Assembly: GCA_947629575.1 (NCBI GenBank) | Contig: CANREF010000001.1 | Coordinates: 124,001 to 188,000 of the forward strand | DNA from: an uncultured Clostridia bacterium | Lineage (GTDB): Bacteria > Bacillota > Clostridia > Christensenellales > Borkfalkiaceae | DNA length: 64,000 nt | Direction of reading: 5' to 3' | Shown here: piece by piece, positions 14,283 to 60,513 of the stretch | Numbering within the stretch: position 1 is the first letter of the stretch | Layout of the letters: every line of letters begins with the position of its first letter | Translations under genes and position numbers: made by a program | The notes under the pieces: model-generated | Database searches by the model: none | What the model was told of the DNA's origin: nothing | The model's input: the letters and a program-made list of their open reading frames with translations, nothing else

Positions 14283-14428
14283 GCCTGACTTAACTCTTTG
14301 ATAGCTGCCCCAAGGGGCGATAAGTGGCACGGTGCGTCATGCTGAGCCGAAGTGCAAATACGCAGTCCGTTCACGCTCTCCCCGAAGCATCTTTTTTTCC
14401 GCGAGTTCCTTCCTATAAAAAGCCAATA
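14283..14428. repeat. Repeat fragments between the phosphatase and a small membrane-protein gene
   Basis: No gene. Contains GCGTCATGCTGAGCCG and CTCTCCCCGAAGCATCTT, modules that recur in two copies at 25.4-25.6 kb, and a CCCCAAGGGGCG fold-back. Confidence 0.7.
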
Positions 14429-18163: not shown

Positions 18164-19999
18164 ATGAAGAAAAAGACGAATTTAACTTACATCGGCGGTC
18201 AAGCGGTCATTCAGGGCGTCATGATGCGCGGAAAGACGGGCATGGCGACCGTTGTGCGCAACGACAAAGGCGAGCTGCAAATGGAGGCGAAGCGCATCAC
18301 CCCGCCCGAAAAACGGCGGAAATGGATGCGGTTCGTCTTTATCCGCGGCGTCGTCAATTTCGTCGTATCCCTTGTGGACGGCATGCGCGCCCTTCTGAGG
18401 AGTTCCGAAGCCGCGATCTCCGAAGAGGACGAAGCCCCGCCCAAACTCAACAAATGGGTGGCGGAAAAATGGAAGGTGAGCGTGTCCGACATCGTGACTT
18501 CCGTCTCCACCGTGCTCGGCGTTGCCATCGCGCTCGTGCTCTTCATGTTCCTGCCCTTCTATCTCACCCAACTCATTTCAAACGCTACGGGCGGGGAAGC
18601 GGGCGTGATCGGCGGGAAGGGAAGCCTTTGGTATAATCTTCTCGAAGGCGGATTCCGCATCGTCATCTTTATCCTGTACATCCTGTTCACACTGCTGTTC
18701 AAATCTCTGCGCGAAACATATTGCTATCACGGCGCGGAACATAAGACCATCAACTGCTACGAACACGGGCTTCCGCTCACGGTGGAGAACGTGAAGGGCT
18801 GCTCCCGCCTGCACGACAGGTGCGGTACGACCTTTCTCTTCATCGTCATGTTCATTTCCATTCTCCTGTTTTCGCTCGTGGGCTGGCTCATCGGGCGTCA
18901 TATCGTCACGGGCCTTCCCGCGCTCGATTTCTTCCTCGTATTTCTCATCAAGCTCCTCTGTCTTCCCGTGGTGGCGGGCATCTCCTATGAGGCGTTGCGT
19001 CTTTTGGCGAAGATCCAAAGCCCCGTCGTTCTGCCCCTGAAAGCGCCCGGTTATCTTCTGCAGAAGCTGACGACCCGCGAACCCGATGACGGCATGATCG
19101 AATGCGCCATTCTCGCCTTCAACAAGGTGCTGGATATGGATACCGATCCCGATTCTCCCGAAAAGACCTTCGTCACCGAGACAAAGCTCTCCAAACTGCA
19201 GGAGATGATGAAGAGGCACTTTGCGGAAAAGGACATCGACGAAGCGGACGCGGAGTGGATCTTGAGCCTCACGCTCAACATTCCGCGCAGCGAATTGAAG
19301 TCGGAACGGGTCGTCACCCAAAAGGAGTGCGGGAAGATCCTCGCGCTCTATGAGGAACGGCTCACGGGAAAGCCCCTTTGGTACATCTTCGGGAATACCG
19401 AATTCTACGGCTATCGCATCGCGGTGGACGAGAGGGTGCTCATTCCCCGTCCCGAGACGGAGATCTTGGTGCAGCAGGCGATCGCCGCGATCTCGGAGGG
19501 AGATAAGGTGCTCGATTTGTGCACTGGCAGCGGGGCGATCGCGATCGCCATTGCCTGCGAGGCGGCGAAGGAAAAGAGCATCTCCGTCACGGCGGCGGAC
19601 ATCTCCGAAGACGCACTCGAGGTCGCGCGGGACAATGTGCGCTACAACAAAGCGAACGTAAATCTCGTCAAGAGCGATCTTTTCGAGAACATCCACGGAA
19701 AATTCAACATCATCACGGCAAACCCGCCCTATGTCAAGACGGCGGAGATCGCTCATCTCCAGCGCGAAGTGCGGGACTTCGAGCCCACGATCGCATTGGA
19801 CGGCGGCGAAGACGGTCTGGATTTTTATCGCCGTATCGCGGCAAAGATCAACCGCTATGTCGTCCGTGGGGGGATGCTCATCCTCGAGTGCGGCGAAAAC
19901 CAGGCGCGCGATATCCTCAAGATCTTCTCCCGTTGCGATTACGCAATGGTCGTGAAGGACCTGAGCGGAAAAGAGAGAGTGGTAAAAATTGTGTTTTGA
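18164..19999 (+). CDS. prmC: YqhQ (DUF1385) - PrmC fusion: membrane protein joined to release-factor glutamine methyltransferase
   Basis: A continuous 611-residue frame. Residues about 1-310 are DUF1385/YqhQ: GGQAVIQGVMMRGKTGMATVVRN, several membrane helices, and the conserved YHGAEHKTINCYE and GCSRLHDRCGTTFLF blocks. Residues about 335-611 are a complete PrmC: LSLTLNIPRSEL, GKPLWYIFGNTEFYG, VLIPRPETEILV, LDLCTGSGAIAIAIA (AdoMet), and the catalytic NPPYVK. PrmC methylates Gln of the GGQ motif of release factors; its substrate PrfA is encoded next. In most relatives these are two adjacent genes; here they are one frame with no stop between. No in-frame start with a good RBS is obvious at the junction. 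Confidence 0.92.
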   Translation: MKKKTNLTYIGGQAVIQGVMMRGKTGMATVVRNDKGELQMEAKRITPPEKRRKWMRFVFIRGVVNFVVSLVDGMRALLRSSEAAISEEDEAPPKLNKWVAEKWKVSVSDIVTSVSTVLGVAIALVLFMFLPFYLTQLISNATGGEAGVIGGKGSLWYNLLEGGFRIVIFILYILFTLLFKSLRETYCYHGAEHKTINCYEHGLPLTVENVKGCSRLHDRCGTTFLFIVMFISILLFSLVGWLIGRHIVTGLPALDFFLVFLIKLLCLPVVAGISYEALRLLAKIQSPVVLPLKAPGYLLQKLTTREPDDGMIECAILAFNKVLDMDTDPDSPEKTFVTETKLSKLQEMMKRHFAEKDIDEADAEWILSLTLNIPRSELKSERVVTQKECGKILALYEERLTGKPLWYIFGNTEFYGYRIAVDERVLIPRPETEILVQQAIAAISEGDKVLDLCTGSGAIAIAIACEAAKEKSISVTAADISEDALEVARDNVRYNKANVNLVKSDLFENIHGKFNIITANPPYVKTAEIAHLQREVRDFEPTIALDGGEDGLDFYRRIAAKINRYVVRGGMLILECGENQARDILKIFSRCDYAMVVKDLSGKERVVKIVF

Positions 20000-20001
20000 G
20001 G

Positions 20002-20250
20002 TTTCGCACATTTCTTTTCCCTGTGCTATGCGCCAAACTCTCTAATTGTCATTTCGAGCGGAGCGCGAAGCGCGAAGTCGAGGAATCTCACCATGGAAAA
20101 GAAATGTGCGAGGGGTAAAGTTGTCTGCTTCGTAGCTACTATCTACCCGCCCGATAATCGCTTCGTAAAAACGAAAAGCCGTAAGTGTGCGGCAAATTGT
20201 GTGCGCTTATGGAAAAGTGTGATTTTCCAACGCGCAGTAATTGGGAACGG
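20002..20250 (+). repeat. Post-stop fold-back element, copy 1 (after prmC)
   Basis: Begins two bases after the TGA at 19997-19999. 5' arm TTTCGCACATTTCTTTTC (20002-20019), 3' arm GAAAAGAAATGTGCGA (20096-20111), about 75 bases of cargo between them that contain a CGAAGTCGAGGAATCTC repeat module. Then comes a type 1 tail (GGGGTAAAGTTGTCTGCTTCG and onward, with GCCGTAAGTGTGCGGC) to about 20250. Confidence 0.85.
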
Positions 20251-20490
20251 TTTCGCACATTTCTTTGCTCACTCCCCCCTTGCCCACCCCTTGAGGGGTG
20301 GGTGTCACGCGCAAAGCGCGTGACGGAAGGGGTGTCGCTCTGAAAAGAAATGTGCGAGGGGTAAAGTTGTCTGCTTCGTAGCTACTATCCCCCCGCCCGA
20401 TAACGGCTTCGTAAAAACGGAAAGCCGTAAGTGTGCGGCAAATTGTGTCCCGCAGCGCAAAAGCGTGGTTTTGCTCGCGGAAGAGATTTA
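20251..20490 (+). repeat. Post-stop fold-back element, copy 2 (directly after copy 1)
   Basis: 5' arm TTTCGCACATTTCTTT (20251-20266), 3' arm GAAAAGAAATGTGCGA (20342-20357). The cargo differs from copy 1: it has the nested fold-backs CCACCCCTTGAGGGGTGG and CACGCGC/GCGTG. The type 1 tail follows to about 20490. Confidence 0.85.
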
Positions 20491-20847
20491 AGAAAAACCA
20501 CCTCAGTCACCTACGGTGACAGGTCTCACGCGGTTAGAAACCCGCCTAACTTCGCCCTGCGGGCTCGTGCCGCCTAAGGAATCATGACAGTAGGAATGCG
20601 GGGCGGTCACCGTTCGCGCGGCAAATGCGCTCACTCATCGCAAAACGCAACCCACAGCCCGCGGGGCTGGTGGGTTAGGAATGCGTTTTGCGACCTCCTT
20701 AGGAGGCGCCTTTCTTGCCCCCTCCAAGGAGGGGGGTAGGGGGGTGGTGCATGACGCGTGGTGGGTTGCGCAACCAAGAGCCCGCTCTTGCCTAAGGAGG
20801 CTGGGTGGTGGTGTCCTTTCCCAAGAACCGTAACAACAAAAAACGCA
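20491..20847. repeat. Mosaic repeat spacer before prfA
   Basis: No gene. Contains CACCTCAGTCACCTACGGTGA, CCTCCTTAGGAGGCGCC and CCCCTCCAAGGAGGGG modules that recur at 45.8, 49.9 and 59.5 kb. It separates prfA from the prmC fusion by more than 800 bases. Confidence 0.75.
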
Positions 20848-25313: not shown

Positions 25314-25800
25314 GCAAGGGCTTAAGGCGCCTCCTCAGGAGGAGCTGTCGAGCGGAGCGAGACTGAGGTGGTATCTCGCTGCCCCGCCCGTCCATGCGTC
25401 ATGCTGAGCCGTGGATTAATTACGCAGTCCGATAAAGCTCTCCCCGAAGCATCTTGGTACGTTTAGGTGTGGTTTTGAAGGGCTTGTCGTAGGTGACTAG
25501 GGTGGTATCTCGCTGCCCCGCCCGTCCATGCGTCATGCTGAGCCGTGGACTAATTACGCAGTCCGATAAAGCTCTCCCCGAAGCATCTTGGTACGTTTAG
25601 GTGTGGTTTTGAACGAACCAGACGTAACAGGATTCCCTCGGAGAATTGCCGCGTCGAACGTTGTAATAACCAATGCGGCTCGGAATGACGCGGGGGTTAC
25701 GCCGAGTGCCCACCCCCTTAGTCCCCCTCCAATGGAGGGGGTGGTGGTTCGCTTGCCCCCTCCGTGGGAGGGGGTGGCACGAGCGAAGCGAGTGACGGGG
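25314..25800. repeat. Repeat mosaic with two 113-bp direct repeats
   Basis: No gene. Copies at 25367-25479 and 25501-25613 differ at about one base by eye and are 134 bases apart. Each holds GCGTCATGCTGAGCCG, ACGCAGTCCGATAAAG and CTCTCCCCGAAGCATCTTGG, the module also seen at 14.3 kb. Downstream are several CCCCTCC/GGAGGGG fold-backs. Confidence 0.8.
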
Positions 25801-25993
25801 GTGGGGCGAGTTCCAAATGCCTTCCGCGAGCAAAACTACGCTTTTGCGCTGCGGGACCCAATTTGGCAATTACTTTTGCCTTATTGTCCGATGAAACGAA
25901 CAAGAGGACAAGCGCGTTAAGGCATCGGGGGAAGGTTTCCTCACGGAAAAAGATTTTGCGCCAGCAAAAGATTTTTCGTGAAATTAAAGTCGT
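25800..25993 (-). repeat. Post-stop fold-back element, copy 8 (minus strand, tail type 2)
   Basis: Reads in the sense of the minus-strand gene that stops at 25998. Arms lie at about 25943-25960 and 25964-25985 (CACGGAAAAAGATTTTGC against GCAAAAGATTTTTCGTG, with a small internal loop). The 3' arm is followed in minus sense by GAGGAAACC and the type 2 tail with TTGTCC/GGACAA and AGTAATTGCCAAATTGGG. Confidence 0.75.
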
Positions 25994-25997
25994 GAAA

Positions 25998-26441
25998 TTA
26001 TTCTATCATCTTTTTCCAGATCTCTTCGAACCGCTCTTCCATTTGGAGAGTATCTTCGGCGAGTTTGCGGATGTCCTCATCCTCCTGCTCGTCGCTCATG
26101 TCGGAAAGACTGCTTCTGATCGCGGTGATGCCCATGACAGTCCCCTGCACCATCATCTCCGAGATGTGCGCGCGGGAATTGTCCGTCATCGTGCTCATCT
26201 TGATAGAACTCCACATCATCGCCTTCTTGATCGGGCCGGGGTTTTTGAGTTCGATATTCTTATCCTTTGCAATGATCGCAGCCTTCGAGCACATTTTTTC
26301 GTATTCGTCGTGCTGGCGAAGAAGCTCCTCTCTGACGTCGGGATCTTCCGCCTCGGGCAAGATATCGGAAATGGATTGCAGCGCAAGCTGGCAGTTCCGA
26401 TGGACTTCCGCTAAAATTTCTTCGCTTTTTTTGAGTTCCAT
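25998..26441 (-). CDS. Conserved helical protein of unknown function
   Basis: A 147-residue, all-helical, acidic protein. The start at 26439-26441 has AAAGGAG seven bases upstream; a longer frame has no ribosome site. Sequence MELKKSEEILAEVHRNCQLALQS, REELLRQHDEYEKMCSKAAIIAKDK, KNPGPIKKAMMWSSIKMSTMTDNSRAHISEMMVQGTVMGI and a Glu/Asp-rich end suggest a four-helix bundle like ferritin-related stress proteins, but no metal-ligand pattern can be shown. Divergent from rplU. Not recognised further. Confidence 0.7.
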   Translation of the reverse strand: MELKKSEEILAEVHRNCQLALQSISDILPEAEDPDVREELLRQHDEYEKMCSKAAIIAKDKNIELKNPGPIKKAMMWSSIKMSTMTDNSRAHISEMMVQGTVMGITAIRSSLSDMSDEQEDEDIRKLAEDTLQMEERFEEIWKKMIE

Positions 26442-36025: not shown

Positions 36026-39000
36026 ATGAAACGCAAATTTTTGACGGTGTTTTTGGCTGTCATGGCGACGCTTTGCATGGTGTTCGCCCTCTCCGCATGC
36101 GATCTGTTCGGCAGCGGCGGAAAAAGCACGGGAAGCGGCACGGGAAACAACGGCACGCAAACCGAACAGGGCGGCAATACGCAAAAGCCCGACGAGGGCG
36201 GACAGGGCAGCACTGAGCCCGAGAAGAAGGAATTCACCGTGACCTTCAACGCCAACGGCGGCGAGTTTGAGGACGGAAAGAGCGCCTTTTCGGTGTCGGT
36301 GAAGGAGAACGAAACTCTGTCCCTTCCCGAAGAGCCGACGCGCGATAAGTACGAGTTCGTGCAGTGGTGCACGGACAGTTCTTTGGAGACGGCGTGGGAC
36401 TTTTCCACACCCGTGACAAGGGCAATGACCCTCTATGCCGATTGGAAGGCGCTCGTGACCGAGTTCGATGTGACCTTCATTCTCAACTATGAGGGGGCGG
36501 AAAACGTCGTCCGCTCCACGGAGAACGGGCTCGTGACATTTATCCCCGAGCGGGCGGACTATGTGTTCAACGGTTGGTGGCTGAGCGACGGGCTCACCGA
36601 GAGCGGGGAATACATATTATCGCAGAAATGGGACACCGCCGAACCCGTCACCGAGGCGGGCTTGCGGCTCGTGGCGGAATGGGTGGAGAAGGCCACCGTC
36701 TCCATGCAGCTTCCAGCGCCCTCCGTTACGATCAACGAGGCAGTGTTCTCGTGGGAAGCGATCGCGGGGGCGAAGGAGTACGATATCCGCGTCTATAAGG
36801 CGGGCAGTAACACCGAGGAGACCAAGGACCGCACGGACGGCACGACTTGGACCTTCCCGAGCGGTTTCGACGCGGGCTACTACACGGTGAAGATCAGAGC
36901 GCTCGGCGACGGCATGACGACCGTCAACTCGGCATTCGTCTCCAAGAGCTATGGGCACTTGATCTTGAGCAAGATCTCCGAGATCAACTTCGATATTTCC
37001 ACTTCCATTCTCACCTGGACGGCGGTGCGCAAGGCAACTTCCTATGTGCTGTATATCGACAGCGTGGAGACGGAGACCCTCTCCTATACCTCGTTCGATA
37101 TGTCCGCCTACGAGGCGGGGAGCTATTACGTTCAGATCATTGCCAAAAGGGACGGCTACGAATCCTCCACAACGAGCAAAACAGTCGAGAAGAAACGGCT
37201 GAAAACGCCCGAGACGAAGGTGACCTTCGATAACAAGGTCAGCTCTCAATGTACCGTTACATGGGAGCCCGTCGCCCATGCGGACACCTACATCCTTACC
37301 CTCAACGGCGTGGAGCACCGCTTCACGGACGAAACATCCTACACCTTTGACCGCTTCGGCGATTGGGGAGAAGAGCAGATGATCTCCATTACAGTGTCTG
37401 CCTTCGATAGTTATGCGGACTATGCCGTCTCCAATCCCTTTACGGCGGAGACGGAGCAGGTCAACGTCATGGTGAAAGCGACGGAGGGCGGCACTGCTGC
37501 GCTCGAAAACGGCGATGTCTGTGGGAAATTTCCATTCGGAAAAGAGATGTCGGTTGTAGCGACCACCAACATAGGCTACACTTGGGTTGGTTGGTATCGA
37601 GGAAAAGAAGAAGTCACGACTGAGCTTTCTTTCCAATTCACCAAGGAGGAAGAAAATGTTTCTTACGAAGCACGGTGGAGCAAGGTGACCTTGACAGTGA
37701 ACGATTCCTTGGCGGGTAGTGTTACGCAGCTCAACGCCACTTACAAAGTCGGCGATGAAGTGACGCTTACCGCTACGACGAACAAGGGCTATACCTTCAT
37801 CGGTTGGTATCAAGGCGAGCAAGAAGTTTCCACCGAGCTTACTCTCCAATTCACCATGGGGAAAGGGAATGTCGCTTATGAAGCACGGTGGAAAATGGAT
37901 TCGTCTATGAAGAATTTCATATTTACCTCCACTCAAACCAATTGTTCGGTCACGGGTGTAAAAAATCCGAATGCTACACGGCTTACGGTCCCTGATTATG
38001 TCACTTCTATCGCGCAAGGCGCTCTCAAGGACTGCAGCTCTCTTCAAAGCCTCACGATCCCCTTTGTAGGGGAAAGCAGAAAGACGGCAAAGAATACCTA
38101 TCAATATCCATTTGGCTATATTTTCGGAACTTCGAGTTTCTCCGGCACTTCGGCTGTGAAGCAATCCTATTATGGTAATAGCACAAGTAGCACTACTTAC
38201 ACTACCTATTATATCCCCAATTCCTTGAAGAGCGTTACGATAACAGGGGGAGAGATCCTTTATGGGGCGTTCTCTTATTGCGACAGGTTGACGGAAGTTA
38301 CGATCGGGAACGGCGTGACGTCGATTGAGAGTGACGCATTCAGCGGTTGCAGCAGGTTGACATCGATCCGTATTTCCGACAGCATGACCTCGATTGGATA
38401 TGATGCGTTCAGTGGCACTGCTTACTATAACAGCAATGACAACTGGGATAAAGCGGGAGTTCTCTACATCGACCATCATTTGATTGCGGCAAGGAGTACG
38501 ATTGAGGGGAGCTATTCCATTCGTACTAGCGCAAAGACAATAGCAGAAAAAGCATTCTATAATTGCAGTGGGTTGACGGAAATCACGATTCCCGACAGTG
38601 TGACCTCGATCGGAGATTATGCGTTCTATAATTGTAGCAAGTTGAAAAGTGTATCGTTTGGTAATAATAGCAAACTGACCTCGATCGGGGATCGGGCGTT
38701 CGCTTATTGCAGCGGGTTGACGGGAGAATTGAAGATTCCCGACAGCGTGACCTCGATCGGAGATTATGCGTTCTATCATTGCAGCGGGTTGACGGGAGAA
38801 TTGAAGATTCCCGACAGCGTGACCTCGATCGGGGATCGGGCGTTCGCTTATTGCAGCGGGTTGACGGGAGAATTGAAGATTCCCGACATCGTGACCTCGA
38901 TCGGAGATTATGCGTTCTATCATTGCAGCGGGTTGACGGGAGAATTGAAGATTCCCGACAGCGTGACCTCGATCGGAGATTATGCGTTCTGTGATTGCAG

Positions 39001-39685
39001 CGGGTTGACGGAAATCACCATTCCGAGAAGCGTGACCTCAATCGGAAGTAGTGCGTTCTATGGCTGTAGCGAGATCAAAAAAGTTCATATTACCGATCTT
39101 TCTGCATGGTGCAATATTTCATTTGGAAGTGATTCAAATCCGCTTTACTATGCACATCATTTATATATGGACGGGGAGGAGGTCATAAAGTTGGAGATTC
39201 CCAACGGTGTAACCTCGATCGGAGATTATGCGTTCGATGGTTGCAGTGGGTTGACGGAAATCACGATTCCCGACAGTGTGACCAAGATCGGAAATTATGC
39301 GTTCAAGGATTGTATCGGATTGACTTCAATCGACATACCGAACAGTGTGACCTCGATCGGAAGCTGGGCGTTCTATAAGTGCAGCGGGTTGACGAAAATC
39401 ACGATCCCCGACAGCGTGACCTCGATCGGAAGCTGGGCGTTCTGTGATTGCAGCGGGTTGACGGAAATCACGATTCCCGACAGCGTGATCTGGATTGGTG
39501 CGAGTGCGTTCTGTGATTGCAGCGGACTCAAAAAAGTATATTTTGAAAACCCAAACGGGTGGAAGGTAAATTATTATACCGGTCCGTCAAACGTCAAATC
39601 TGTTTCGGGGCTTGAAGATCCTGCGACGGCGGCAGAATATTTGAGAAACACTTATCGCAATTATTATTGGCGTCGGTATAACTAA
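36026..39685 (+). CDS. BspA-like leucine-rich-repeat surface lipoprotein
   Basis: A 1219-residue secreted protein. Residues 1-25 are a lipoprotein signal ending ALSAC. A Gly/Ser/Thr linker leads to InlB/Listeria-Bacteroides repeats (VTFNANGGEFEDG, LYADW), fibronectin-type-III-like segments (about 225-480), more InlB-like repeats (YTWVGWYRGKEEV, YTFIGWYQGEQEV) and, from about 640 to 1170, at least 15 BspA-type LRR_5 repeats (VTSIGDYAFYHCSGL). Such proteins bind host or microbial surfaces. Five repeats between 38.67 and 38.99 kb are nearly identical at the DNA level (72-base unit). AAAAGGAG precedes the ATG. Controlled by the divergent XRE protein, inferred from the operators. Confidence 0.9.
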   Translation: MKRKFLTVFLAVMATLCMVFALSACDLFGSGGKSTGSGTGNNGTQTEQGGNTQKPDEGGQGSTEPEKKEFTVTFNANGGEFEDGKSAFSVSVKENETLSLPEEPTRDKYEFVQWCTDSSLETAWDFSTPVTRAMTLYADWKALVTEFDVTFILNYEGAENVVRSTENGLVTFIPERADYVFNGWWLSDGLTESGEYILSQKWDTAEPVTEAGLRLVAEWVEKATVSMQLPAPSVTINEAVFSWEAIAGAKEYDIRVYKAGSNTEETKDRTDGTTWTFPSGFDAGYYTVKIRALGDGMTTVNSAFVSKSYGHLILSKISEINFDISTSILTWTAVRKATSYVLYIDSVETETLSYTSFDMSAYEAGSYYVQIIAKRDGYESSTTSKTVEKKRLKTPETKVTFDNKVSSQCTVTWEPVAHADTYILTLNGVEHRFTDETSYTFDRFGDWGEEQMISITVSAFDSYADYAVSNPFTAETEQVNVMVKATEGGTAALENGDVCGKFPFGKEMSVVATTNIGYTWVGWYRGKEEVTTELSFQFTKEEENVSYEARWSKVTLTVNDSLAGSVTQLNATYKVGDEVTLTATTNKGYTFIGWYQGEQEVSTELTLQFTMGKGNVAYEARWKMDSSMKNFIFTSTQTNCSVTGVKNPNATRLTVPDYVTSIAQGALKDCSSLQSLTIPFVGESRKTAKNTYQYPFGYIFGTSSFSGTSAVKQSYYGNSTSSTTYTTYYIPNSLKSVTITGGEILYGAFSYCDRLTEVTIGNGVTSIESDAFSGCSRLTSIRISDSMTSIGYDAFSGTAYYNSNDNWDKAGVLYIDHHLIAARSTIEGSYSIRTSAKTIAEKAFYNCSGLTEITIPDSVTSIGDYAFYNCSKLKSVSFGNNSKLTSIGDRAFAYCSGLTGELKIPDSVTSIGDYAFYHCSGLTGELKIPDSVTSIGDRAFAYCSGLTGELKIPDIVTSIGDYAFYHCSGLTGELKIPDSVTSIGDYAFCDCSGLTEITIPRSVTSIGSSAFYGCSEIKKVHITDLSAWCNISFGSDSNPLYYAHHLYMDGEEVIKLEIPNGVTSIGDYAFDGCSGLTEITIPDSVTKIGNYAFKDCIGLTSIDIPNSVTSIGSWAFYKCSGLTKITIPDSVTSIGSWAFCDCSGLTEITIPDSVIWIGASAFCDCSGLKKVYFENPNGWKVNYYTGPSNVKSVSGLEDPATAAEYLRNTYRNYYWRRYN
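38678..38995 (+). repeat. Near-identical 72-bp tandem repeats inside the LRR gene
   Basis: About four and a half units of 24 codons encode alternating GDRAFAYCSGLTGELKIPDS and GDYAFYHCSGLTGELKIPDS. They differ at few bases, unlike the flanking 69-base repeats, so they look recently amplified. Confidence 0.85.
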
Positions 39686-44900: not shown

Positions 44901-45573
44901 GAATATCAACAGCCTTCGCCACAAGATCGCGGCGCTCGGGCCCGTCAACCAAAACGCCGAGGAAGATTACGATCTTCTGCTTGCGCGCTATACCGAGATG
45001 CAGACGCAGAAGGAGGACCTCGACAAGGGCATTGCAGACCTCACCACGGTGCTCACAGATCTGAGAAACGCCATGCAGAAGCAGTTCGACGACGGGTTCA
45101 ATGAGATCAATAAGAACTTCACGCAGATCTTCAAGGAACTGTTCGGCGGCGGCAAGGCGGAGATGCAGCTCGACTATACCGATTGTATTGACCCGTTGGA
45201 AGCGGGCGTGGAGATCATCGCCTGTCCTCCCGGGAAAAAACTTACGAAGATCTCCCTGCTCTCGGGCGGAGAGCGGGCGTTCACGGCGATCGCGATCCTG
45301 TTTGCGATCCTGAAATCCCGTCCCATGCCCTTCTGTATCCTCGACGAGATCGAGGCGGCGCTGGACGAGGCGAACGTGGGGAGATTCGCAAAGTATCTCA
45401 AAAAATTCAGCAAGGAGACGCAATTCATCGTCATTACGCACAGAAAGCCCACCATGAACGAGGCGGATGTCCTCTTCGGCGTTACGATGGAGGAGAAGGG
45501 CGTGAGCAAGATCGTCTCCGTCAAGCTGTCCGAAGTGGAATCCCGCCTCGGCGGAGATACGATAATGGCGTGA
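41974..45573 (+). CDS. smc: Chromosome segregation protein SMC
   Basis: A 1199-residue SMC. N-terminal ATPase half with Walker A VGPNGCGKSNVADAV (about 32-46); coiled coil to about 500; hinge about 510-660 (IRGAIADLVSTEQKYEVAIETAFGGAMQNLV, GGIVTFLPV); returning coiled coil; and C-terminal half with signature LLSGGERAFTAIAILFAIL and Walker B FCILDEIEAALDEANV. It condenses and segregates DNA with ScpA/ScpB. Start at 41974 fixed by the rnc overlap and the MNFKEIQLAGFKSF N-terminus. Confidence 0.97.
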   Translation: MNFKEIQLAGFKSFADKTTIKFEDGVTCIVGPNGCGKSNVADAVRWVLGEQSAKTLRGSSMQDVIFNGTQERRALSYCEVTLIFDNTSRLFDIDYDEVAMTRRLYRSGESEYLLNKQSCRLKDIVALLHGVGIGKEGYSIIGQGKVEQIMNAKPEERRAIFEEATGVMKFKTQKGEIERKLENAKDNLTVFVQRMDEAEKQLKPLEKQAETAKKYREYSSSLKYEEVNTYLARCENFEHETSKHRKRIAEADEQLTAIESELEEVDEKEARAFESAAEQDESLRDLNDKLRVFEVGLEHKSGEARVLGERISSYKRRLTAASEDVEYSLRRSKEIDRILEEDGKKRSESESRAVENEKKAAALQSKLQETDARLARFEQLSDEQRLSEISSVENLADVRANVSGLSAQKTAASERIDEVRRAIGKAEGRKTDFSAQLENCRKEKGECEQFLNGKNAREEELQETLKDLARSGQKLSQDLVDCNTSIANLTNNLEMYRNLKNRFDGYRDSVRNLQLTAKRDPELGKKIRGAIADLVSTEQKYEVAIETAFGGAMQNLVTATADDARFLIEYLKKTGGGIVTFLPVANMRPRYNSGEIQRALHEKGALGLADELVRYDSYYDNVIKNLLGNTLVCDTIASATSVAKKYPGAFRIVTLDGDIIATSGAMTGGSRRKESGNLLAGERHIKECEEGIKRKTVLAKKIKEAIESSEKDREETEAEYERFRVRVQEETAKFAALSQKELALSDLIADAERDIAEYAGLLERLEKRVGDIESEVLSSAENEDVLNKIRSEAAAELAAQQAQSANLKEEREKLLEELHALRVESATLASAREALEENSRRLTEEKLALLKKVDETHTEITQTEILINQLKKDEEKVALTEEEQQAVASLRAGISRVEEEKKTTAAEQAALGEKKRALLARRQNVSDIKHGSELEISKAEVALENMKQRIDEAYGLTLETAQELRDENYDISQSAANINSLRHKIAALGPVNQNAEEDYDLLLARYTEMQTQKEDLDKGIADLTTVLTDLRNAMQKQFDDGFNEINKNFTQIFKELFGGGKAEMQLDYTDCIDPLEAGVEIIACPPGKKLTKISLLSGGERAFTAIAILFAILKSRPMPFCILDEIEAALDEANVGRFAKYLKKFSKETQFIVITHRKPTMNEADVLFGVTMEEKGVSKIVSVKLSEVESRLGGDTIMA

Positions 45574-45577
45574 TGTG

Positions 45578-45815
45578 TTTCGCACATTTCTTTGCTCACT
45601 TCCATCCCTTGCCCACCCCTTGAGGGGTGGGTGTCACGCGCAGAGCGCGTGACGGAAGGGGTGTCGTTCGAAAAGAAATGTGCGAGGGGTTAGGTTGTTT
45701 GCTTCGTAGCTACCATCTACCCGCCCGATAATCGCTTCGTAAAAACGGAAAGCCGTAAGAGTGCGGCAAATTGTGTCCCGCAGCGCAAAATGGCGATTTT
45801 GCTCGCGGAGTGATT
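45578..45815 (+). repeat. Post-stop fold-back element, copy 3 (after smc)
   Basis: Begins four bases after the smc TGA. 5' arm TTTCGCACATTTCTTT (45578-45593), 3' arm GAAAAGAAATGTGCGA (45670-45685). The cargo matches copy 2 (CCACCCCTTGAGGGGTGG and CGTGACGG). Type 1 tail to about 45815. Confidence 0.85.
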
Positions 45816-46095
45816 TTAAGAAAAACCACCTCAGTCACCTACGGTGACAGCTCCTCCTTAGGAGGCGCCTTTCTTGCCCCCTCCTGAGGGGTGGAGCGGC
45901 GTCATTCTCCTCAACAGCCCTGCGGGCTGTGAGGGACGCCGCGACAGGAGCGCTGTAAAAGCGCGACGGGGTTTTGGCGGTCCCTGCCGCCAAAACGGGT
46001 AGGGGGGTGGTGTCTCTCCCGAAACGAGGTGAATTCGCGCTACGGCTCTCGGCACTTGAGATTTTGCGGTGCAAAAGATTTTTCGTGAACATTCG
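45816..46095. repeat. Mosaic repeat spacer before ftsY
   Basis: No gene. CACCTCAGTCACCTACGGTGA, CCTCCTTAGGAGGCGCC, CAGCCCTGCGGGCTG and CAAAACGGGT modules. Near 46040-46085 the segment ending AAAAGATTTTTCGTGAA resembles the stem of copy 8 in reverse, without a tail. Confidence 0.7.
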
Positions 46096-47994: not shown

Positions 47995-49314
47995 ATGGCG
48001 CTGTTTGCCTCGCTCTCCGAGCGGCTCAATCACATCTTCAGTAAGCTCACCAAGCGCGGAAAGCTCACCGAGCTCGAGATCCGTACCGCCATGCGGGAAG
48101 TGCGCATCGCCCTTCTCGAAGCGGACGTGAATATCCGCGTCGCCAAGGACTTTATCGCTACCGTCTCCGAAAAGGCGGTGGGGCAGGAAGTTTTGCAGTC
48201 CTTGAATCCCGCCCAGCAGGTCATCAAGATCGTCAACGACGAGCTCATCGCCCTCATGGGGGCGGGGAATTCCAAGCTCGAAGTTTCTCCCAAACCGCCC
48301 ACGGTCATCATGATGTGCGGGCTTCAGGGCGCGGGAAAGACTACGATGTGCGCAAAGCTCGCTGTGCTCCTCAAAAAACAGGGGAAGAAGCCCCTGCTCG
48401 TCGCTTGCGACATCTACCGTCCCGCGGCGATCGACCAACTCAAAGTCGTCGGCGGAAAGGCGGGCGCGGAAGTGTTCGAAAAGGGCACGCAAGCTCCCCC
48501 CAAGACCGCGCGGCAGGCGGTGGAGTACGCAGAGCGCATGGGGTTCGATACCGTTATCGTCGATACCGCGGGGCGGCTTCACATCGATGAAAGGCTCATG
48601 CAGGAGCTCGAAGAGATCAAAAAAGAGGTAACGGTACACGAAATTCTGCTCACAGTGGACGCCATGACGGGGCAGGACGCCGTGAACGTCGCCGAGACGT
48701 TCAATTCCCGCCTCAATGTGACGGGCGTGATCTTGACCAAGCTCGACGGCGATACCCGCGGCGGCGCGTGCCTCTCCATCAAGGCGGTGACGGGCAAGCC
48801 CATAAAATTCATCGGCGTGGGGGAGAAGATCACCGACCTCGAGCCCTTCTATCCCGACCGTATGGCTTCCCGTATCCTCGGCATGGGAGACGTCCTCTCC
48901 CTCATCGAGAGGGCGCAGGAGGCTGTTTCCGAACAGCAGGCGAAGGAATTGGAGCGCAAGATGCGAGAAAATTCCTTTACCCTTACCGACTATCTCGCCC
49001 AATTCGAGACCCTCAAAAAGATGGGGGGCGCGGGAGCGCTCATGAACATGCTTCCCGGCGCAGGAAAACTGAAGATCAAGGAGGGGGATGTCGACGAAAA
49101 GCGGATCGAGCGGATCAAGGCGATCATTCTCTCCATGACGGGAAAGGAGCGGGATAACCCGCAGATCATCAATTATTCCCGCAAAAAGCGGATAGCCGCA
49201 GGCTCGGGAACGAGCATACAGGATATCAACCAACTCCTCAAGCAATTCGAGCAGACCAAAGAGCTGATGAAGCGCATGAAGGGCGGAAAGGGGAAAATGA
49301 GAATGCCGTTTTGA
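47995..49314 (+). CDS. ffh: Signal recognition particle protein Ffh (SRP54)
   Basis: A 439-residue SRP54. N domain (residues 1-90), G domain with MCGLQGAGKTTMCAKLA, CDIYRPAAIDQLKV, VDTAGRLHIDERLM and LTKLDGDTRGGACLSI. A Met-rich M domain follows from about 300 (TLTDYLAQFETLKKMGGAGALMNMLPG, ending KRMKGGKGKMRMPF) and binds 4.5S RNA and signal peptides. It is co-transcribed with ylxM. FtsY, its partner, lies 1 kb upstream. Confidence 0.97.
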   Translation: MALFASLSERLNHIFSKLTKRGKLTELEIRTAMREVRIALLEADVNIRVAKDFIATVSEKAVGQEVLQSLNPAQQVIKIVNDELIALMGAGNSKLEVSPKPPTVIMMCGLQGAGKTTMCAKLAVLLKKQGKKPLLVACDIYRPAAIDQLKVVGGKAGAEVFEKGTQAPPKTARQAVEYAERMGFDTVIVDTAGRLHIDERLMQELEEIKKEVTVHEILLTVDAMTGQDAVNVAETFNSRLNVTGVILTKLDGDTRGGACLSIKAVTGKPIKFIGVGEKITDLEPFYPDRMASRILGMGDVLSLIERAQEAVSEQQAKELERKMRENSFTLTDYLAQFETLKKMGGAGALMNMLPGAGKLKIKEGDVDEKRIERIKAIILSMTGKERDNPQIINYSRKKRIAAGSGTSIQDINQLLKQFEQTKELMKRMKGGKGKMRMPF

Positions 49315-49317
49315 GTG

Positions 49318-49577
49318 TTTCGCACATTTCTTTGCTCACTCCACCCCGTCCACCGACACGTCATCCCGAGCGTAGCGAAGCGAAGTCGAGGGATCTCGTT
49401 CTAAGAGCAAACTGCGGGGTGTCGTTCGAAAAGAAATGTGCGAGGGGTTAAGTTGTCTGCTCCGCACTCACTATCTGCCCGCCCGATAACTGCTTCGTAA
49501 AAACGAAAAGCCGTAAGAATGCGGCAAATTGAGTGCGCTGCCGCAGGGAAACCCTGCTCCGCGCAGTAATGCGAATG
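49318..49577 (+). repeat. Post-stop fold-back element, copy 4 (after ffh)
   Basis: Begins three bases after the ffh TGA. 5' arm TTTCGCACATTTCTTT (49318-49333), 3' arm GAAAAGAAATGTGCGA (49428-49443). The cargo holds CGTCATCCCGAGCGTAGCG and GTCGAGGGATCTCG. Type 1 tail to about 49577, ending in a CCGCAGGGAAACCCTGC hairpin. Confidence 0.87.
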
Positions 49578-49578
49578 G

Positions 49579-49830
49579 TTTCGCACATTTCTTTGCTCAC
49601 TCCACCCCGTCCACCGACACGTCATCCCGAGCGTAGCGAAGCGAAGTCGAGGGATCTCGTTCTAAGAGCAAACTGCGGGGTGTCGTTTCGAAAAGAAATG
49701 TGCGAGGGGTTAAGTGATTTGCTTCGTAAAAGCAATCTACCCGCCCGATAACGGCTTCGTAAAAACGGAAAGCGCGAGGTGTCGCGCAAATTGTGTCTCG
49801 CAGCGCAAAAGCGTGGTTTTGCTCGCGGAA
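49579..49830 (+). repeat. Post-stop fold-back element, copy 5 (tandem to copy 4)
   Basis: 5' arm TTTCGCACATTTCTTT (49579-49594), 3' arm GAAAAGAAATGTGCGA (49690-49705). Cargo almost identical to copy 4, so the pair looks like a tandem duplication of about 260 bases. The tail diverges after its first 25 bases and ends GCTCGCGGAAGG. Confidence 0.87.
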
Positions 49831-50010
49831 GGAATTTGGGAACTCGCCCCACCCCCTTAGTCCCCCTCCCACGGAGGGGGCGGAAAGCCCTCTCCTTAGG
49901 AGAGGATGCCCCTTCAGGGGCGGGTGTGGTGTCCCAAAACCACCTCAGTCACCTACGGACAGCTTCTCCTAAAGAGAAGCCGAGCCGAACTAAGAGCATC
50001 AAATTAAAAT
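49831..50010. repeat. Mosaic repeats before rpsP
   Basis: No gene. CCCCTCCCACGGAGGGGG, CTCTCCTTAGGAGAG and CACCTCAGTCACCTACGG modules. Confidence 0.7.
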
Positions 50011-50037
50011 CTGAAATTTATTTGGAGGTATATTACC

Positions 50038-50331
50038 ATGGTAAAAATGAGACTGGTGAGAATGGGCGATAAAAAATCCCCCGTCTACCGCATTGTGGTC
50101 GTGGACGCGAGAAAAGCGGCGACCGGCGAGTACATCGACAAGGTGGGTTTCTACGATCCCAAGTCCACTCCCGTGACATTGACGGTGGACGTCGAAAAGG
50201 CCAAGGATTGGCTCGCCAAGGGCGTTCAGCCCACCGAGACCGTCAAGTCTTTGCTCGTAAAGACAGGCGCGCTCGAAAAGTCCGAGAAGCTCTCTCCCGC
50301 CAAAACCAAGGGCAAGAAAAAGAAGAAGTAA
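50038..50331 (+). CDS. rpsP: Small ribosomal subunit protein bS16
   Basis: A 97-residue S16: MVKMRLVRMGDKKSPVYRIVVVDARKAATGEYIDKVGFYDP is the family N-terminus; the C-terminal tail is Lys-rich (KTKGKKKKK). GGAGG lies nine bases before the ATG at 50038; a second Met at codon 4 is too far from it. Normally it directly follows ffh; here about 720 bases of repeats lie between. Confidence 0.96.
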   Translation: MVKMRLVRMGDKKSPVYRIVVVDARKAATGEYIDKVGFYDPKSTPVTLTVDVEKAKDWLAKGVQPTETVKSLLVKTGALEKSEKLSPAKTKGKKKKK

Positions 50332-50336
50332 TTAAG

Positions 50337-50500
50337 TTCACAAATTTTTCCTGACGGAAAAATTTCGTGAGGAAACTTGCTTTGCTGCCTTAACCTACTT
50401 GTCCTCTCGTTCGTTTCAAAGGACAATAAGGCAAAAGTAATTGCCAAATTGGGTCGCCTACGGCGGAAGTGAATTCCGCCTAAGGCACATAATTGGGAAT
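50337..50500 (+). repeat. Post-stop fold-back element, copy 6 (after rpsP, tail type 2)
   Basis: Begins five bases after the rpsP TAA. 5' arm TTCACAAATTTTTCC (50337-50351), 3' arm GGAAAAATTTCGTGA (50356-50370), one bulged base. Tail type 2 follows: GGAAACTTGC, TTGTCC/GGACAA and AAGTAATTGCCAAATTGGG. Confidence 0.82.
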
Positions 50501-50503
50501 AGT

Positions 50504-50665
50504 CCACAAATTTTGTCGTTCCGACAAAATTTCGTGAGGGGGTTAAGTTGTCTGCTTCGTAGCTGCAATCTGCCCGCCCGATAGCTGCTTCGTAAAAACA
50601 AAAAGCCGCAGGTGTGCGGCAAATTGTGTGCGCTGCCGCAGGGAAACCCTGCTTCGCGCAGTGAT
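50504..50665 (+). repeat. Post-stop fold-back element, copy 7 (tail type 1)
   Basis: Stem CCACAAATTTTGTCG (50504-50518) and CGACAAAATTTCGTG (50522-50536) with almost no cargo. Type 1 tail from GGTTAAGTTGTCTGCTTCG to a CCGCAGGGAAACCCTGC hairpin. Shows a short hairpin can replace the long fold-back before the same tail. Confidence 0.82.
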
Positions 50666-50790
50666 GAAAGGAAAGAACCCCCACCTGTCATGGCTACGCC
50701 ATGCCACCCGCCCCCTTGGAAAGGGGGCAGGTCTAAGGCCTACCCCCTACGGGGTGGGAGGAGCCTCCCATTCTCTCTTTGAGAGGGTAT
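50666..50790. repeat. Short mosaic repeats before khpA
   Basis: No gene. Contains GCCATGACAGG-type and CCCCCTTGGAAAGGGGG and CTCTCTTTGAGAGGG fold-backs. Confidence 0.6.
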
Positions 50791-59449: not shown

Positions 59450-59650
59450 ACATTTTTGATTCAAAACCCCTCAGTCACTCACGTTGTTCGTGACAGCTCT
59501 CCTACAGGGGCGCCGAGGGGCGTCGGACTTCGTTCCTCGGGATTCTTCGCTACGCTCAGAATGACGCGGGAAGCCAAGGGCGCCCACCCTACCCCCCTCC
59601 AATGGAGGGGGTGGCACGAACGCAGTGAGTGACGGGGGGTGGGTAAAGTT
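59450..59650. repeat. Mosaic repeats
   Basis: No gene. CCCTCAGTCACTCACG, CCTACAGGGGCGCCGAGGGG, a GATTCTTCGCTACGCTCAG module and CCCCTCCAATGGAGGGGG. Confidence 0.7.
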
Positions 59651-59885
59651 CTCCCAATTATGTGCCTTAGGCGGAATTGACTTCCGCCGTGGGCGACACA
59701 ATTTGGCAATTACTTTTGCCTTGTTGTCCAAGCCGAGCGAATGAGAGGAATATCCTGTTGATGTAGGGGGAAGGTTTCCTCGCGGCGTTAATTTTCGACT
59801 GACACCCCTTCCGTCACGCGCTTTGCGCGCGACACCCACCCCTCAAGGGGTGGGCAAGGGGGCAAGGCGAAAAGAAATGCCGCGA
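59650..59885 (-). repeat. Post-stop fold-back element, copy 9 (minus strand, tail type 2)
   Basis: Reads in the sense of the gene that stops at 59887. Arms: TCGCGGCGTTAATTTTCG (59780-59797) and CGAAAAGAAATGCCGCGA (59868-59885), central mismatches. The cargo is the CCACCCCTCAAGGGGTGG and GCGTGACGG module of copies 2 and 3. In minus sense the 3' arm is followed by GGAAACCTTCCCC and the type 2 tail. Confidence 0.8.
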
Positions 59886-59886
59886 A

Positions 59887-60513
59887 TTAAATTTTACTAT
59901 ACCCATACGAATTGACGAGAGCGTCGATCTTGATCCCTGCGCGGCAGTACGGGCATTCGCTCGCGGGGAAAGAACTGTATCCGTGAATGTCCTCTACCCC
60001 GAAGAGGCGCACGACGGGGATGTTCTTGAAGGAGAAATTCCCCCCGAATACCGCCGCTGCGCCCACTGTTTCCCCGCCGTAATAGCGAATCCCTTCGAGC
60101 GCGCTCGCAAGCGTAAGACCCGTCGTCGCGGTCGCCGTCAAAAGGAGCACCCGTCTGTTCTTGACATAGGGAGAGAGATTGTCCCTGAGGATCATCATGT
60201 CCCCCGTCACTTCGGGGGAGACGACGGCGATGTCCGCTCCCGCGTTGATGCCGCCCGCCGCAAGCTCTTCTGCCAAGAACGCGCCGATCATCTTGGTGCG
60301 CTCCAAAGTAATGATCGTGTCGATGGGAGTGCCGCCGAAGTTTTCGGCAAAGAGTTTTGCCGCCGCCCGCGCCATGTTCATCTCCGATTTCACCGCCGTC
60401 ATGTCGATGCAGTGGCTGACGTGCGAATGCTGCGTTGCGAAGTGTCCTTCCATCACACGGATGGCAACGCTCTTGTTTCTCTTCGATCTGAGCTCAATGC
60501 CTCTTGTTTCCAT
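59887..60513 (-). CDS. Phosphoribosyltransferase-like protein
   Basis: A 208-residue type I PRTase-fold protein. Elements seen: IDTIITLERTKMIGAFLAEEL (equivalent of the VxGxxxxGxxxA region), and RRVLLLTATATTGLTLASALEGIRYYGGE where the PRPP loop should be. The usual two acidic residues before the TTG (DD or ED) read TA, so catalysis may differ or be lost. The end holds ECPYCRAG, a CxxC pair. It is annotated as orotate phosphoribosyltransferase-like in similar genomes. A true pyrE exists at 32911-33564. The start ATG at 60511-60513 has AAGGGGAAAT upstream. Confidence 0.75.
   Translation of the reverse strand: METRGIELRSKRNKSVAIRVMEGHFATQHSHVSHCIDMTAVKSEMNMARAAAKLFAENFGGTPIDTIITLERTKMIGAFLAEELAAGGINAGADIAVVSPEVTGDMMILRDNLSPYVKNRRVLLLTATATTGLTLASALEGIRYYGGETVGAAAVFGGNFSFKNIPVVRLFGVEDIHGYSSFPASECPYCRAGIKIDALVNSYGYSKI

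Follow-up and report, generated by a model that had tools for sequence, protein, structure and literature searches.

The 1.87 Mb genome of an uncultured Clostridia bacterium harbours 139 copies of a non-coding, RNA-structured interspersed element. The element family is undescribed and restricted to a few genera within a single family of Christensenellales. The rule common to these copies is that the 5' end of the element abuts a gene edge and the 3' end does not. Because related species gain and lose copies at corresponding gene ends, and because helices are swapped among copies, we regard the element as a mobile, RNA-shaped unit rather than an ordinary terminator; the fuller reading, in which the element is mobile but non-autonomous, keeps its fold by selection and inserts at gene edges in a directed way, stands at about even in our judgement.

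Copies in the window

The window (the whole stretch of 64,000 nucleotides analysed, to which all positions refer) contains the nine copies that an earlier note had listed from the letters alone, each in its place and in the order described there, i.e., a 5' stem, then GAGGGG or GAGGAAA(C), and then a tail with the CAAATTG hairpin. The distances to stop codons also agree with those noted. On the plus strand, copies begin 2 nt past the stop of a DUF1385/PrmC-domain gene at 18164-19999 (copy 20002..20249, middle module A), 4 nt past the smc stop at 45571-45573 (45578..45824, module A), 3 nt past the ffh stop at 49312-49314 (49318..49575, module A) and 5 nt past the rpsP stop (50337..50500, module B, a compact form without loop insert). 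The other three plus-strand copies, all with module A, each lie behind the tail of a preceding one: 20251..20496, directly after the first copy, 49579..49844, in tandem behind the ffh copy, and 50504..50666, in tandem behind the rpsP copy. The 5' hairpin and loop of the second of these (49578-49687) are identical to 49317-49426. On the minus strand, a module B copy (25808..25984) lies 12-14 nt behind the stop of the gene at 25998-26441(-) and is preceded by a 5'-foot remnant, TTTCACGACTTTAA, and a module B2 copy (59648..59885) starts 0-1 nt past the stop of the gene at 59887-60513(-). Pfam identifies the DUF1385/PrmC-domain fusion, smc, ffh and rpsP among the flanking genes, and ftsY and KhpA as the next genes.

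Other repeats are nested in or scattered around these copies. The 5' hairpin of the first copy spans 20004-20111 and its loop contains another palindromic repeat; such repeats (GTCATTTCGAGCG...GTCGAGAAATCTC and CCTTGCCCACCCCTTGAGGGGTGGG...GACGGAAGGGGTGTCG) are also found inside the 5'-hairpin loops at 20277-20345, 45606-45674, 49360-49400 and 59815-59870, and one loop insert recurs with A and B modules alike and with differing hairpin feet. Elsewhere in the window, a 119-nt repeat (TGCGTCATGCTGAGCC...GAAGCATCTT) occurs at 25361-25613 in two copies 134 nt apart and 97% identical, with a third relative at 14333, and a 1219-aa open reading frame (36026-39685) carries in-frame tandem repeats of 69 and 72 nt at 38511-39544.

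Architecture and fold of the element

The element is 160-260 nt long and consists of several helices. Its 5' hairpin is free in sequence on a fixed foot (G|TTYRC...GYGA). GAGG comes next, then one of several interchangeable middle modules, and after a small hairpin and CAAATTGNGT the unit closes with a last hairpin and a short tail near AGTAATTTGGGAA. CAAATTG is invariant, and the last hairpin shows strong covariation. Middle module A reads GGTTAAGTTGTCTGCTCCGTAG...CCCGCCCGATAACTGCTTCGTAAAAAC and module B reads AAACCTTCC...CTTAAC...GTCCTCTCGTTCGTTTCA...GGACAA. Modules are found mixed among copies, and the module table behind this statement was used for the middle and 3' modules only, most 5' hairpins falling into no type.

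Example units are more stable than their shuffles (z of -3.2, -5.1 and -5.8), and in the covariance-model alignment 97.1% of the paired cells of the structure are indeed paired. The covariation score reaches 0.635; shuffling lowers it to 0.221 +/- 0.017, and sliding the partners leaves no more than 0.144. Of the 16 pairs of the modelled structure, 11 have changed on both sides. The covariation is partly due to the exchange of whole modules and not to base-by-base compensation. Hairpin variants such as GCCGTAAGTGTGCGGC, GCGCGAGGTGTCGCGC and GGCAAAAGTAATTGCC substitute for one another as whole, self-consistent helices. Pairing, covariation and whole-helix replacement together indicate that the fold is under selection, as RNA or as single-stranded DNA.

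In two sister genera (g8 and g10), a candidate pseudoknot formed by the GGGGCACAC loop with the TTCACCC strand was rejected, since its pairing did not exceed that of shuffled sequences (as high in 44 of 500). Terminal inverted repeats, a criterion for a MITE, were also sought: no pair links the start of the element with its end, and the 5' hairpin accounts for the sole long inverted repeat.

The earlier note had also suggested termination. Terminator-like sites in the element region number four, against 2.9 expected, and none of the sense hairpins is followed by a T-run, the T-runs lying at hairpin C on the antisense strand; an intrinsic terminator was therefore rejected. On the minus strand, at 50605-50620 and 49772-49787, the antisense of hairpin C (subtype A) is followed by a T-run (GCCGCACACCTGCGGC TTTTTGTTTT) and resembles an intrinsic terminator, which may stop transcription arriving from the other side.

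Placement at gene edges

The count of 139 comes from a covariance model built from 34 copies; DNA searches with the A and B cores returned about 50 matches each. We classified 98 copies (ca. 70% of all), drawn from the whole of contig C1 and from the flanks of matches, a set that is not a random sample of the genome. All genomes are metagenome-assembled (MAGs); genes were called with a simple caller trained on this genome, leading copies were picked by custom scripts, and the TTYRC foot motif was taken as the start of a copy.

A same-sense stop codon is the upstream neighbour of 51 of the 64 leading copies, and in 50 of these 51 the TTYRC foot lies 0-8 nt past it, so that the peak in distance and sense seen in the window is confirmed genome-wide. 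The base before TTYRC is G in 36 of 41 cases. Random placement in the empty gaps of C1 would bring only 3.8% of copies within 12 nt of a stop, or 9.4% and 13.3% if gaps are limited to 150 nt and 100 nt, respectively, and P is therefore below 1e-30 for 50 of 64 in each case. Distances on the 3' side are mostly 90-1000 nt, the space being occupied by further copies and other palindromic repeats, and short 5'-foot remnants and solo 5' hairpins precede some copies.

The claim that all copies read in the direction of the preceding gene holds as a sense bias and fails as a law, since about one-fifth of the leading copies differ, and more do so in the sister genera. Most copies are located in co-directional gene pairs, where sense outnumbers antisense by 42:8 (p about 1e-6) here and by 35:18 (p 0.03) in g8 and g10. 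The upstream neighbour of the other 13 leading copies is the start of an opposite-strand gene; several of these copies lie just outside its Shine-Dalgarno sequence, others tens of bases off. Many copies in g8 and g10 likewise start 0-12 nt past a stop and others at a distance of roughly 10-30 nt from the start codon of a gene on the opposite strand, in loci so short that automatic gene calls are rougher and some start-side entries false. Start-side copies obey the same 5'-end rule.

Such a pattern could also be left by an untargeted mobile repeat. Compact genomes leave free bases only between a stop and the next leader or Shine-Dalgarno, and the surviving copies would merely look targeted, with other repeats accumulating later on their 3' side. 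We think this rather unlikely, although not to be dismissed lightly: even in gaps of up to 100 nt, random placement yields far fewer stop-side copies than were found, copies between convergent genes hug the stop as well, and a start-side element separates a leader from its gene, yet often hugs the Shine-Dalgarno.

Gain, loss and module exchange at orthologous sites

The junction between smc and ftsY could be followed in 29 congeners. In 12 of them an element lies 0-8 nt past the stop, in one case after a foot remnant, and the 5' hairpins of these elements are of many kinds. In nine the gap is only about 10-40 nt; longer gaps or other repeats are found in the remainder. On a Smc+Ffh tree of the 29, presence requires at least seven gains or losses. 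The sisters G443 and G453 (protein distance ca. 0.04) have this site in common and agree in the 3' half and the 3' flank, but their 5' hairpins and middle modules are unalignable; the outgroup G439 has the middle module of G453 with a third, different hairpin. Between ffh and rpsP, empty gaps measure 31-81 nt and filled sites hold the element 3-6 nt past the stop, with a leader of similar length retained on its 3' side, so the copy entered without visible loss. From these two comparisons it follows that copies have been gained and lost and that 5' modules have been replaced in place. Since the neighbouring genes share no homology, plain gene conversion could not stop precisely at the 5' edge.

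It was also observed that the final Ala codon of smc, present in most species with an empty site, is often missing from congeners that bear an element; some insertions may have provided or shifted the smc stop codon.

These sites bear on the untargeted reading in opposite ways. Filtering by lack of space would come most easily at smc-ftsY, given the short empty gaps of the nine congeners, and in the compact case of G456, where the element exactly fills the gap between stop and AGGAG. It is harder to reconcile with the copies at ffh-rpsP and rpsP-KhpA, which still sit 3-6 nt from the stop where room exists, unless the A-rich rpsP leader, similar among congeners, does not tolerate insertions, as may be the case. 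No clear target-site duplication was seen in comparisons of filled and empty congener sites (ffh/rpsP and smc), where the 3' boundary of the element is not fixed. Dispersed copies are typically about 93% identical to their nearest relative and at most 97%, so that no fresh burst is visible and recent activity appears modest.

The earlier note had left the choice between a 3'-UTR element and a mobile one, and the mobile branch fits best, with gain and loss at the same stop across the 29 species and with empty sites that are short ordinary gaps. A pure 3'-UTR function, or termination, fits poorly with the missing sense T-run, with patchy presence at orthologous sites and with congeners free of copies. 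On these comparisons, the element does not appear to be an inherited 3' UTR. Another form of host function is an intercistronic or 3'-UTR element maintained by the host, whose post-stop hairpin would act as a ribosome termination structure (RTS) or as a barrier to exonucleases, insulating or tuning operon genes, and whose core may bind a protein. Placement immediately past the stop, the 42:8 operon bias and the conserved fold with its compensation would all be expected of it; moreover, re-initiation is limited by stable post-stop structures (PMC7518266), and in Escherichia coli REP sequences reduce translation when a stop codon is 15 nt away or less (reported in PMC12306157). Nevertheless, presence is patchy even among related species, antisense start-side copies follow the same 5'-end rule, and published RTSs are depleted inside operons (PMC7518266), where most copies lie here in co-directional pairs, and we consider host maintenance unlikely.

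A proposed model of edge insertion and array collapse

We postulate, for the mobile element with edge-directed insertion, that a new copy would enter an intergenic gap with its 5' end against a gene edge, usually directly past a stop codon and, less commonly, upstream of and close to the Shine-Dalgarno of a gene on the other strand. Where the edge is already occupied, the newcomer would land before or behind the old copy and produce a tandem array, which recombination between the shared cores could then collapse into a chimera of new 5' module and old 3' half. Edge insertion followed by such a collapse would amount to the replacement of a 5' module in place, and the model fits the tandem copies, the 5'-foot remnants and the solo 5' hairpins. 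It supposes that the element is mobilized as a whole by an enzyme provided in trans, that its fold is selected for movement, that insertion is aimed and not merely filtered by selection, and that arrays collapse by homologous recombination.

Distribution and searches for a mobilizer

Records of Candidatus Borkfalkia (Christensenellales) and many MAGs of uncultured Clostridia contain the core pattern; these named loci suggest that the window comes from Borkfalkia or a sister genus. Within the window's family, the model matches 38 of 151 genomes, belonging to 4 of 18 genera; nearly all members of the window's genus have them and a few congeners show none. A diverged form reaches up to 85 copies in g8 and g10. 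Outside the family, 291 sampled Clostridia genomes gave no match under strict filters. No contig in IMG/VR carries the core motif, and a phage-borne element was rejected on this ground.

Known mobilizers were sought in the genome, which is 94% complete. The Y1 transposase (RAYT, PF01797) gave no match here and was detected in control genomes, so that a passenger of IS200/IS605 or RAYT was rejected. A retroelement (group II intron or retron) was rejected as well, there being no reverse transcriptase in this genome and only sporadic ones, without pattern, in 6 of 31 congeners. Several diverse copies found no known RNA family in Rfam, HEARO (RF02033) included, at gathering thresholds or at E values up to 10 (window region) and up to 5 (congeners and other genera).

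The complex multi-helix fold with its invariant CAAATTG and variable 5' arm, repeated many times per genome, might recall guide-type or scaffold non-coding RNA genes, e.g., orphan omega-like RNAs, serving a trans-acting nuclease or ribonucleoprotein. However, IscB/IsrB proteins (RRXRR) exceed the cut-off in none of the 31 genomes, the weak matches being Cas9-sized frames of 1346-1372 aa, by which IscB with its omega RNA was rejected; together with the lack of Rfam matches and of promoter-like sites in the element region, this makes RNA genes of such a kind very improbable.

Relation to known repeats and significance

MIRUs of Mycobacterium are intercistronic repeats located at stop/start overlaps in operon sense, and the element resembles them in both respects; they are small, ORF-bearing units not known to have a multi-helix RNA fold, which sets them apart. 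The REP/BIME/REPIN sequences of Enterobacteria and Pseudomonas, with their RAYTs, are likewise high-copy extragenic hairpins, some of which are situated no more than 15 nt from stop codons and are able to influence translation (PMC12306157). They are palindromes of 20-40 nt that go with a RAYT/Y1 gene, whereas the units here measure 160-260 nt, have several helices on a TTYRC foot, exchange helix modules and occur in a genome without that gene. Proximity to stops also differs, 98% of the leading stop-side copies lying within 8 nt compared with 11% of E. coli REPs within 15 nt.

YPAL/RU-2 of Yersinia, as described in the part of a review drawn on here (PMC2229807), is about 168 bp long, lacks terminal inverted repeats, contains internal palindromes, has filled and empty sites and is expressed with upstream genes. 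By that description it is similar to our element in size, palindromes, termini and site occupancy, although the lineages are unrelated, and the same part of the review does not describe a stop-abutting 5' rule or module swapping for YPAL. BOX elements of Streptococcus pneumoniae (boxA-boxB-boxC, about 125 per genome; PMC3049150) share, by description and across different organisms, the modular, high-copy and structured nature. They have terminal inverted repeats, target duplications and a variable count of one inner module, while the element lacks such terminal repeats, is placed at gene edges and has alternative modules that replace each other at fixed positions. RTSs are stable mRNA structures immediately past the stop (PMC7518266), much as the foot of the element is past nearly every stop it adjoins, but they are a property of many unrelated genes and the element is a single homologous repeat family.

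Small repeats at gene ends are common. What is unusual here is the strictness of the 0-8 nt rule, which holds at about 50 sites and is followed by independent insertions in related species. A speculative and at present doubtful possibility is that we are dealing with a new kind of RNA-dependent mobile element, one that would find gene edges, above all stop codons, place its 5' hairpin there and exchange whole helices while keeping its multi-helix architecture. Effects on the host are plausible, and a side effect on translation is likely by analogy because of the published RTS and REP work. Related gut bacteria differ in whether their smc-ftsY and ffh-rpsP junctions hold a strong post-stop structure, which amounts to a natural experiment in this respect. 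The family as a whole also allows one to ask how gene edges are found by an element that has no visible enzyme, and how an RNA can evolve by modules and still keep its structure.
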